Shown here: positions 16,537 to 18,124 of the stretch, piece after piece | How positions within the stretch are numbered: the first letter of the stretch is position 1 | How the letters are laid out: each line of letters opens with the position of its first letter | NCBI RefSeq assembly: GCF_010731755.1 | Contig: NZ_AP022589.1 | Location: 868,001 to 932,000, forward strand | Reading direction: 5' to 3' | Source of the DNA: Mycolicibacter minnesotensis | Lineage (GTDB): Bacteria > Actinomycetota > Actinomycetes > Mycobacteriales > Mycobacteriaceae | DNA length: 64,000 nucleotides | The notes under the pieces: model-generated | Databases searched by the model: none | Told to the model about the DNA's origin: nothing | What the model saw: only the letters and a program-made list of their open reading frames with translations | Made by a program: the position numbers and the translations under genes

Positions 16537-16645
16537 GGTCATGAGTGCCAGCGCGAAGCCCCGGCTTGCTGGCCGGCAACCCTCCAACCGCGGTGGGGTG
16601 CCCCGGGTGATGACCGGGTTGAGTAGCCGCCACGGCTACGCGGCA
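16537..16645 (+). ncRNA. SAM-IV riboswitch upstream of metY-metX
   Basis: P1 pairs GGTCAT (16537-16542) with ATGACC (16610-16615). Between them are GTGCCAGCG, GCCCCGGCTTGCTGGCCGGC, AACCCTCC and GGTGGGGTGCCCCGGGTG, the SAM-IV core. A GTAGCCGCCACGGCTAC hairpin follows, as in the SAM-IV peripheral stem. This class is known upstream of mycobacterial metY/metC. High S-adenosylmethionine should lower expression of the methionine genes. Confidence 0.9.
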
Positions 16646-16692
16646 AGCGCGGGTCCGCCACAACGGGCCCCCCGAGTAGACAGGGGAACCTG

Positions 16693-16737
16693 ATGCGTGC
16701 CTCTTTGCGCCCGTTCACCCGTTGTTGTTGTCGCTGA
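16693..16737 (+). CDS. 14-residue leader peptide with a Cys-Cys-Cys tail, upstream of metY
   Basis: ATG 16693 opens [14 protein letters not shown] and stops at 16735-16737. AGGGGA lies about 6 nt before the ATG. The three Cys codons are TGT-TGT-TGT and form part of the 5' arm of the hairpin at 16725-16765. Polycysteine leader peptides that respond to cysteine supply are established in mycobacteria. Here the leader sits between a SAM-IV riboswitch and metY, which consumes sulfide or a related sulfur donor. Expression of the peptide is inferred. Confidence 0.65.
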
Positions 16738-16765
16738 CCCCACTTCTCTGCCCCAGCGACAACAA
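16725..16765 (+). promoter_or_regulatory. Candidate attenuator hairpin before metY
   Basis: TTGTTGTCGCTG (16725-16736) and CAGCGACAACAA (16754-16765) form a perfect 12-bp stem with a 17-nt loop. The 5' arm covers the last Cys codons and stop of the leader peptide. The 3' arm ends 4 nt before the CGAGGAAAG ribosome binding region of metY. There is no U-tract, so masking of the ribosome binding site is more likely than termination. Confidence 0.65.
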
Positions 16766-16786
16766 TTCCGAGGAAAGCATTCATCG

Positions 16787-18124
16787 ATGACCGACAACAA
16801 CACCGACCCGAGTTCGCACTGGTCCTTCGAGACCAAGCAGGTCCACGCCGGGCAGGCCCCCGACGCGGCCACTAACGCCCGGGCGTTGCCGATCTACCAG
16901 ACCACCTCCTACACCTTCAATAACACCGAGCACGCGGCCAAGCTGTTCGGTCTGGAGGAGCCGGGAAACATCTACACCCGGATCATGAACCCGACCAATG
17001 ACGTGGTCGAGCAGCGGATCGCCGCACTTGAGGGCGGTGTCGCGGCACTGCTGTTGGCGTCCGGGTCTGCCGCGGCGACCTTCGCCATCCTCAATCTCGC
17101 CGGCGCCGGCGACCACATCGTGTCCAGCCCTCGGCTGTACGGCGGTACCTACAACCTCTTCCACTACTCGCTGACCAAGCTGGGCATCGAGACCACGTTC
17201 GTCGAGGACCCCGATGACCTGGAGTCCTGGCGAGCGGCAGTACGGCCCAACACCAAGGCCTTCTTCGCCGAGACCATCTCCAATCCGAAGATCGACGTAC
17301 TCGACATACCGGGAGTCTCGGGCGTTGCCCACGACAACGGTGTGCCGCTGATCGTCGACAACACCGTGGCGACCCCCTACCTGATCCAGCCGTTGGCCCA
17401 CGGTGCCGACATCGTGGTGCACTCGGCCACCAAGTACCTGGGTGGGCACGGCTCGGCGATCGCCGGCGTGATCGTCGACGGCGGCACCTTCGACTGGACG
17501 CAGGGCCGCCACCCGGGTTTCACCACCCCCGACCCGAGTTACCACGGGGTGGTCTTCGCCGACCTCGGTGCTCCCGCGTTCGCCTTGAAGGCCCGCGTGC
17601 AGCTGCTGCGCGACCTGGGCTCCGCGGTCTCGCCGTTCAACGCCTTCCTGATCGCACAAGGCCTGGAGACGCTGAGCCTGCGGGTCGAGCGCCACGTCGC
17701 CAATGCGCAGCGGGTGGCGGAGTTCCTGGAGTCGCGCGATGACGTGCTGAGCGTCAACTACGCCGGGCTGTCGAGCTCGCCGTGGCACGCCCGCGCACAG
17801 CAGCTGGCACCCAAGGGTGTGGGCGGCGTGCTCTCGTTCGAGCTCGCCGGCGGCATCGACGCCGGTAGGGCATTCGTTGACGCGCTGAAGCTGCACAGCC
17901 ACGTCGCCAACATCGGTGACGTACGTTCGCTGGTGATTCACCCGGCGTCGACGACGCACGGCCAGCTCAGCGCCGAAGAGCAGCTGGCCAGCGGTGTTAC
18001 TCCAGGCCTGGTACGACTGGCGGTCGGCATCGAGGGCATCGCGGACATCCTGGCCGACCTCGAACTCGGCTTCTCGGCAGCCTCGGCACAGGTCGGCGAT
18101 TCGTCGGCGCTGGCGGCCCGTTGA
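16787..18124 (+). CDS. metY: O-acetylhomoserine sulfhydrylase / aminocarboxypropyltransferase
   Basis: 445 residues of the Cys/Met-metabolism PLP family (Rv3340 metC of M. tuberculosis). It makes homocysteine from O-acetylhomoserine and sulfide. Visible motifs are [33 protein letters not shown] and [16 protein letters not shown], with K216 the predicted PLP Lys. ATG 16787 has GAGGAAAG upstream and gives the normal N-terminus. It is the first full gene of the operon with metX; the stop (TGA) is 11 nt before the metX GTG. Control is by the SAM-IV riboswitch and probably the Cys leader. Confidence 0.95.

Follow-up and report, generated by a model that had tools for sequence, protein, structure and literature searches.

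A conserved cysteine-codon reading frame between the SAM-IV riboswitch and metY in mycobacteria and rhodococci: a candidate pair of sulfur sensors in series

Polycysteine leaders of Mycobacterium smegmatis have reportedly been tested by Canestrari in 2020, with the outcome that ribosome stalling derepresses; in attenuators of this type, an RNA structure is said to close the downstream ribosome site, and stalling to relieve the closure. The locus described here lies in a window of 64,000 nucleotides (nt) from Mycolicibacter minnesotensis (contig NZ_AP022589.1, positions 868,001 to 932,000), in which an S-adenosylmethionine (SAM) riboswitch of the SAM-IV type is followed by a short upstream open reading frame (uORF) with three cysteine codons, a hairpin, and the gene metY. 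An earlier interpretation made from the letters of this DNA alone (the sequence-only reading) had stated that polycysteine leaders are already known in mycobacteria, and this is correct: cysteine-rich leaderless short open reading frames (ORFs) precede cysA2, Rv0485, and nirA (Shell 2015, PMC4633059). In the accessible text of that paper, metY is not one of the three examples. The metY uORF resembles these ORFs in being short, in lying upstream of the gene, in carrying cysteine codons (as a C-terminal cluster in cysA2), and in being conserved in mycobacteria. Unlike the leaderless polycysteine ORFs, with which their mRNAs begin, it is preceded by a Shine-Dalgarno sequence and stands behind a SAM riboswitch. 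Short accounts of the cysteine-leader work, as far as their available text goes, are given in PMC9031893 and PMC13236596, the latter including a general account of translation attenuation.

Cysteine leader peptides were predicted before cys operons of Mycobacterium and Propionibacterium and before Bifidobacterium cbs (Seliverstov 2005, PMC1262725), and the portion of that paper available notes no conserved RNA structure upstream of methionine operons. Its candidates share with the metY leader a run of cysteine codons near the stop and the lack of a conserved terminator; unlike the metY leader, they belong to cys or cbs operons. Six M. tuberculosis ORFs are predicted to be cysteine-responsive in PMC9094748, whose accessible text gives no gene names, and a 2013 paper, whose available part does not mention a uORF, reports a SAM-IV riboswitch upstream of the metY homologue of M. 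avium (PMC3774663). The joining of a ligand-sensing RNA and a uORF in one leader has a counterpart in Salmonella mgtA/mgtL, where an Mg2+-sensing RNA is combined with a uORF bearing regulatory proline codons (Park 2010, as described in the accessible part of PMC6460261); that system differs in its ligands and genes, in that some bases belong to both the uORF and the sensing RNA, and in that the readout is transcription elongation. In M. tuberculosis, the B12 riboswitch–uPPE2 and Mbox–uORF leaders likewise place a uORF before the main gene and make its translation part of the control (PMC11260477, PMC12810186). They differ from the metY leader in that the available texts mention no amino-acid sensing by the uORF, and ppe2 requires a tight overlap of stop and start.

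In the window, the SAM-IV aptamer occupies 16537–16655 on the forward strand, as do all leader features given below, and matches the full covariance model RF00634 with 114 bits (gathering score 38, E 2.6e-20), confirming the riboswitch that the sequence-only reading had placed upstream of metY. The uORF of 14 codons plus stop (16693–16737) starts with ATG at 16693, 156 nt downstream of where the aptamer begins, and is preceded by its own Shine-Dalgarno sequence, AGGGGAA (16682–16688), which is similar in related leaders. Codons 11 to 13 are TGT TGT TGT (16723–16731), the proposed stall site; the frame had been described as ending in three cysteine codons, which are indeed there, and its actual end is Cys-Cys-Cys-Arg, with Arg14 followed by TGA at 16735–16737. 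The hairpin (16725–16765) pairs TTGTTGTCGCTG (16725–16736) with CAGCGACAACAA (16754–16765) in 12 Watson–Crick pairs, perfect as had been stated, and RNAfold adds one G–U pair to make 13. Its 5′ arm does contain cysteine codons, namely the last base of Cys11 and the whole of Cys12 and Cys13, and it also takes in Arg14 and the TG of the stop. The 3′ arm ends 4 nt upstream of the metY Shine-Dalgarno sequence GAGGAAAG (16770–16777), the spacing that the sequence-only reading had given, and 21 nt upstream of the conserved ATG of metY (16787–18124), which begins 49 nt after the uORF stop.

Conservation was examined in 259 sequences, made up of the window and other loci (L249, which is the window again, was left out). 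SAM-IV matches were found in 195 of 198 genomes of the same genus and in 116 of 121 genomes of the family (30 of 31 genera); loci of 149 of the 195 were compared besides the window locus, and 30 loci from the 116. These yielded 230 riboswitch–metY leaders, 205 of them unique, and all counts are of unique leader sequences, as the unnamed and named collections overlap. Among the 29 sequences dropped, 10 belong to another SAM-IV gene, which L254 also resembles by eye; six (L051, L062, L063, L065, L107, and L026) show SAM-IV and a cysteine uORF by eye, their metY or aptamer motifs having been missed; and in 12 the motif search gave no metY or no aptamer. After three metY-start corrections, metY lies directly behind the RF00634 riboswitch in 72 of the 205 leaders, and the other 133 are long enough to hold a uORF, which most of them contain.

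A uORF was counted as a cysteine uORF when it was preceded by a Shine-Dalgarno sequence and had cysteine among its last five codons. Such a uORF is present in 115 of the 133 long leaders (115 of all 205), a conservation of the cysteine codons far above shuffled sequence. The comparison with dinucleotide shuffles of the leader region behind position 52 was made on 131 leaders, the set before the metY starts of L059, L165, and L178 were corrected: 113 were cysteine-positive against a shuffle mean of about 15 and a maximum of 24, and 77 had at least two cysteines against at most 8 in shuffles. As shuffles retain fewer ORFs (about 75 of 131), the fairer contrast is that of 113 of 129 ORFs with about 20% of shuffled ORFs. 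When the 5′-most ORF was taken blind to cysteine, 103 of the 131 ORFs in 133 leaders carried it, compared with 13.7 of 75.0 in shuffles (maximum 22). Of the last five residues, 30.6% are cysteine, compared with 5.9% in shuffles; at 5.1-fold, cysteine is the most enriched residue, followed by methionine (2.9-fold) and arginine (1.7-fold). Among 65 dissimilar leaders, cysteine is kept in 52. The significance of the cysteine codons is drawn from this conservation, since TGYTGYTGY alone is not rare: as evidence in its own right the raw motif was discarded, with 793 genome sites against 807 for the backward pattern.

Among the 115 uORFs there are 86 distinct peptides, 5 to 42 residues long and with differing flanks, such as MCRCP, MCMCP, MSRCR, MCCCRR, MRSPHMCHCR, and MCAQRYGFAMCCCSH, and they range from Mycobacterium to Rhodococcus, including named Rhodococcus (L092, L103, L105, and L089) and, in the 30 loci from the family, seven genus codes. 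ORFs of the MCCRP type begin 13 nt downstream of the usual ATG and in a different frame. Because the flanking sequence, the length, and the frame position change while cysteine persists, this is the pattern of selection that acts on the cysteine codons and has neither an RNA motif nor a peptide as its target. Codon choice (TGT 182, TGC 92) offers no useful comparison. Judged by this conservation and by likeness to the mycobacterial polycysteine leaders, there is good reason to regard the uORF as a likely cysteine sensor. The trait of polycysteine attenuators of having a short conserved cysteine ORF upstream of a sulfur gene is thus present in 115 of 133 long leaders. Leaderless initiation is not: the uORF lies far behind the aptamer start with its own Shine-Dalgarno sequence, and it would not be leaderless because a TANNNT element precedes the aptamer, where the transcript presumably begins. 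In all 78 assessable leaders of the 205, this element lies no more than 22 nt ahead of the aptamer, a count that has no shuffle control, and in the window it is TAGGCT (16524–16529), a putative −10 element; a sigma-70 consensus scan of 16400–16900 gave no match. By position, transcription probably starts at or just before the aptamer.

Several uORFs have unusual forms. That of L225 contains a 21-nt unit in four in-frame copies (a PALSDRL repeat) with its cysteine end intact, and those of L051, L062, L063, and L065, all Rhodococcus, have the cysteine run at codons 2–4 of a longer uORF, far from the stop (MCCCTDTPRS..., MCCCLDTS..., MCCRLDTP...). In leaders of the M. gordonae and M. asiaticum type (L002/L038, L013, L024, L025, and L034), the uORF has no cysteine near its stop, and in L002 the uORF TGA overlaps the GTG start of metY, which suggests stop–start coupling instead of cysteine sensing. 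A second SAM-IV locus (L237, L239, L240, L242, L244, L246–L248, L258, L259, and L290) precedes a gene of the class-V aminotransferase type; the cysteine uORF was absent there in 10 of 10 examined and also in L290, whose gene matches PF00266 and is nearest to SufS-type cysteine desulfurases, yet below the cut-off of the SufS-type family. Counts of uORF gain and loss from a quick tree (built on part of the aptamer and at most 450 nt of metY; three states, 36 changes, cysteine uORF at the root) are not used, because two large opposite changes fall close to the Mycobacterium base and the tree included three leaders with wrong metY starts, two of them misclassed.

The position of the uORF behind the aptamer raises the matter of what the riboswitch controls. 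A PK-2 strand lies at the 3′ end of the SAM-IV aptamer (PMC6890682, in its available text). In our own base assignment, its presumed counterpart in the window, GCGCGG (16647–16652), is common to the SAM-bound fold and to an apo hairpin, GGGUCCG/CGGGCCC (16651–16670), which it overlaps and which is predicted to compete with closure of the uORF Shine-Dalgarno sequence. When the PK-2 strand is blocked in folding, an effect expected of SAM binding, CCCC (16670–16673) pairs with GGGG (16683–16686) of this Shine-Dalgarno sequence, and the predicted cost of opening the uORF site rises from 7.8 to 9.63 kcal/mol (+1.84). In the 110 of 115 uORF leaders used for this comparison (the rest lacked the motif or the spacing), blocking made the uORF site harder to open by 2.34 kcal/mol against 0.52 in shuffles, with p ≤ 0.05 in 36 leaders and an effect above 0.5 kcal/mol in 84. 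The same blocking in the 72 leaders without a uORF acts on the metY site (+4.35 kcal/mol, shuffles 0.95; p ≤ 0.05 in 45), with an effect above 0.5 kcal/mol in 69 and below −0.5 in none. Where a uORF exists, it is therefore the uORF that the riboswitch is, by these folds, most likely to control. If the platform closes the uORF ribosome site, the SAM and cysteine sensors would stand in series, an order for which the models make a reasonably good case. The proposal that the mRNA reads both SAM and cysteine thus keeps its tandem layout and its conserved cysteine codons, and the side-by-side reading of the two signals gives way, on the folding, to a serial one.

How a stalled ribosome might be read out by metY is less clear. 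In the clade of the window, the stem is kept in all 11 leaders (the window and two named Mycolicibacter included), with 9–12 of the 12 pairs in each and 88.6% of stem cells paired; identity is 90% in the non-coding 3′ arm and 52% in the loop, and of the 12 pairs the outermost is present in the window only, 1 leader of the 11. The stem is therefore conserved in the sense that pairs persist and not in the sense of compensatory change; covariation is uninformative as evidence for the hairpin, since no pair has changed on both sides in 11 sequences. In the window itself, among 60 dinucleotide-shuffled versions of the spacer, none matches the real pairing of the cysteine arm with the spacer (mean pairing 0.64 vs. 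0.08). The further idea that a paused ribosome opens a closed metY ribosome site is not supported over the leaders as a whole. Over 115 leaders, the metY site costs 8.04 kcal/mol to open against 8.57 in spacer shuffles and is thus no harder, and the pairing of its Shine-Dalgarno sequence is not above shuffles (0.496 vs. 0.517); the idea that the cysteine-codon hairpin generally closes this ribosome site was dropped as unsupported. Because the stem ends before the metY Shine-Dalgarno sequence and start codon, it would not act by covering the site; in the window it would, on the predicted fold, get in the way of the 30S subunit or work through weak outer CC–GG pairing.

The mechanism that we favour, with some reserve, treats the metY leader as two sulfur sensors in series. 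When SAM is bound, the PK-2 3′ strand would be occupied, CCCC would pair with the uORF Shine-Dalgarno sequence, and ribosome loading would be poor; when SAM is low, the predicted folds hold CCCC in the other hairpin, and the uORF could be translated. A shortage of charged tRNA-Cys would make the ribosome stall at the cysteine codons of the uORF, as codon conservation and the M. smegmatis polycysteine leaders said to have been tested both suggest. The weakest step is the last, in which the stalled ribosome would cover the 5′ arm of the hairpin, the spacer would stay open, and metY would go up; a translational readout and one through Rho both fit this step. The predicted logic is that low SAM together with low cysteine gives the highest metY, and that high SAM overrides cysteine. 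An upward response of metY to cysteine shortage is probable. In sulfate-starved Rhodococcus qingshengii IGTS8, a condition in which the authors infer restricted cysteine production, MetY protein is higher by a log2 of 2.9–3.1 (PMC8557817, in its accessible part). The SAM-IV–MCRTCR layout (MCRTCR being the R. qingshengii uORF) was found in another strain of R. qingshengii and not seen for IGTS8 itself, and no measured cysteine response of this metY leader was seen in the accessible texts of papers. The broader proposal, in which the riboswitch licenses a deeply conserved cysteine-sensing uORF and full expression of metY requires SAM and charged tRNA-Cys both to be low, and in which the uORF was inserted by taking over the riboswitch-controlled ribosome site and lost again in several lineages, is put forward tentatively, its chances being slightly below even.

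A number of observations weigh against the serial mechanism. Low SAM alone could account for the rise of MetY in IGTS8. By the rule used, 72 of 205 leaders have no uORF and 18 of 133 long leaders have no cysteine near the stop, some of which do have cysteine under looser rules (L064 with a TTG start, L090 and L101 at codons 2–4, and L209 with a three-residue MCP). The platform effect on the uORF site stays at or below 0.5 kcal/mol in 26 of the 110 leaders, with values under −0.5 in 8 of these. The hairpin lacks compensatory change, and pairing between the cysteine region and the spacer is only mildly enriched over the 115 leaders (0.432 vs. 0.338 in shuffles; p ≤ 0.1 in 26). The relief of the metY site by stalling is 0.92 against 0.83 in shuffles, with 11 of 115 leaders at p ≤ 0.05, and stalling with the first cysteine codon in the A site brings the predicted opening cost of this site in the window from 5.5 to 8.0 kcal/mol, so that the site becomes harder to open; this relief of reverse sign amounts to −2.5 in the window and −1.1 in its most similar leader, L117. 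Within the clade, relief is above zero in 9 of 11 leaders, and only 2 of 11 reach p ≤ 0.05 against shuffles, which slightly lowers confidence in the full mechanism.

Other explanations of the same leader concern chiefly how its state is passed on to metY. Sites for Rho are C-rich and G-poor, and the stretch between the uORF stop and the metY Shine-Dalgarno sequence (16738–16769) has this composition in the window and may be a Rho loading stretch. It is conceivable, with odds somewhat against it, that Rho is the readout: the spacer would be exposed after the uORF stop, a stalled ribosome, or none because of closure by SAM, would alter access of Rho, termination before metY would be controlled in this way, and the hairpin would be a local modifier. 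The excess of C over G in the spacer is positive in all 115 leaders, with a mean of 0.206 (C 42.6%, G 23.3%), compared with −0.007 upstream of 63 window ORFs of at least 250 amino acids, none of which reaches 0.2 and many of which, being mechanically listed, may not be genes. In metY coding windows it is 0.096, so that metY is itself mildly C-rich, and the case for Rho is one of composition. The intrinsic terminator search of 16400–16900 found none, and a hairpin with a U run of the trp type is absent there, the sequence after the hairpin being TTCCGAGG. The accessible text on the M. tuberculosis Mbox–uORF leader describes Rho-dependent termination (PMC12810186), and that of Seliverstov 2005 proposes Rho for the cysteine leader peptides of cys operons and terms this a weak prediction (PMC1262725). 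The shortness of the window spacer, at 49 nt from stop to start, speaks against Rho, as does the persistence of the hairpin in the window clade, which suggests a structural readout there; between the hairpin and Rho as the readout, the balance is about even.

The response could also run the other way, stalling on the cysteine codons lowering metY and sparing sulfide, with the broken hairpin freeing the metY Shine-Dalgarno sequence of the window to pair elsewhere. The rise in opening cost under stalling in the window fits this polarity, and the stalled fold has GAGG paired. The polarity is nonetheless unlikely, as 9 of the 11 clade leaders go the reverse way and stalling reportedly derepresses in the tested polycysteine leaders; MetY is also higher in sulfur-starved R. 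qingshengii (PMC8557817, accessible part). A uORF that serves only translation coupling or ribosome loading, its cysteine codons being there for RNA pairing or for a function of the peptide, would suit the cysteine-free M. gordonae and M. asiaticum type and the stop–start overlap of L002. Such a role is improbable for the 115 cysteine uORFs, in which stop and metY start never overlap (median distance 73 nt, minimum 35) and cysteine recurs in peptides of such different length and flanks, a recurrence that shuffles do not reproduce. Chance, by which a cysteine-rich small frame would happen to lie beside an unrelated hairpin, could appeal to the many genomic TGYTGYTGY sites; it is strongly disfavoured by cysteine conservation far beyond shuffles and by stem pairs that persist in the clade despite loop divergence.

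The genes downstream complete the picture of the locus. The metY product matches NF005872 with 861.4 bits (cut-off 703) and PF01053 with 445.6 bits, and metY has a best-segment identity of 78–86% to 80 loci from named organisms. The NCBIfam name of NF005872, bifunctional O-acetylhomoserine/O-acetylserine sulfhydrylase, would tie MetY to both homocysteine and cysteine. metX follows metY from 18121 (NF047917, 610.3 bits, cut-off 475). Upstream of its start codon, metY has an open frame that reaches back to a GTG at 16697, within the uORF, and automated annotation could add a false 30-residue N-terminal extension (16697–16786). Elsewhere, the window has four cobalamin riboswitch matches within 11 kb (1440–1729, 8342–8459, and 12190–12347). 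Two form a back-to-back pair at 1440–1510 (minus strand) and 1541–1729 (plus strand), the latter before a periplasmic-binding/FecCD/ABC importer set (1767–5826). The other two, at 8342–8459 and 12190–12347 on the minus strand, precede PPE-family genes at 6520–8244 and 10561–12180 and recall the B12 riboswitch of M. tuberculosis ppe2 as described in the available text of PMC11260477.

Both parent kinds, the SAM-IV riboswitch leader and the polycysteine leader, are known, and the combination appears to be unreported: no report of a SAM riboswitch with a cysteine uORF was found in a literature search carried out largely without subscription papers. If the serial mechanism is true, many mycobacteria and rhodococci would have a single mRNA leader that senses the two ends of sulfur metabolism in a set order, and the SAM-IV riboswitch in 115 of 205 metY leaders would govern the loading of a sensor ORF and not the enzyme gene directly. 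The many natural variants, with the riboswitch-only leaders as built-in controls, would then allow a clean test of serial RNA logic, and the mycobacterial regulon read by ribosomes through cysteine would reach beyond leaderless ORFs, to methionine synthesis.

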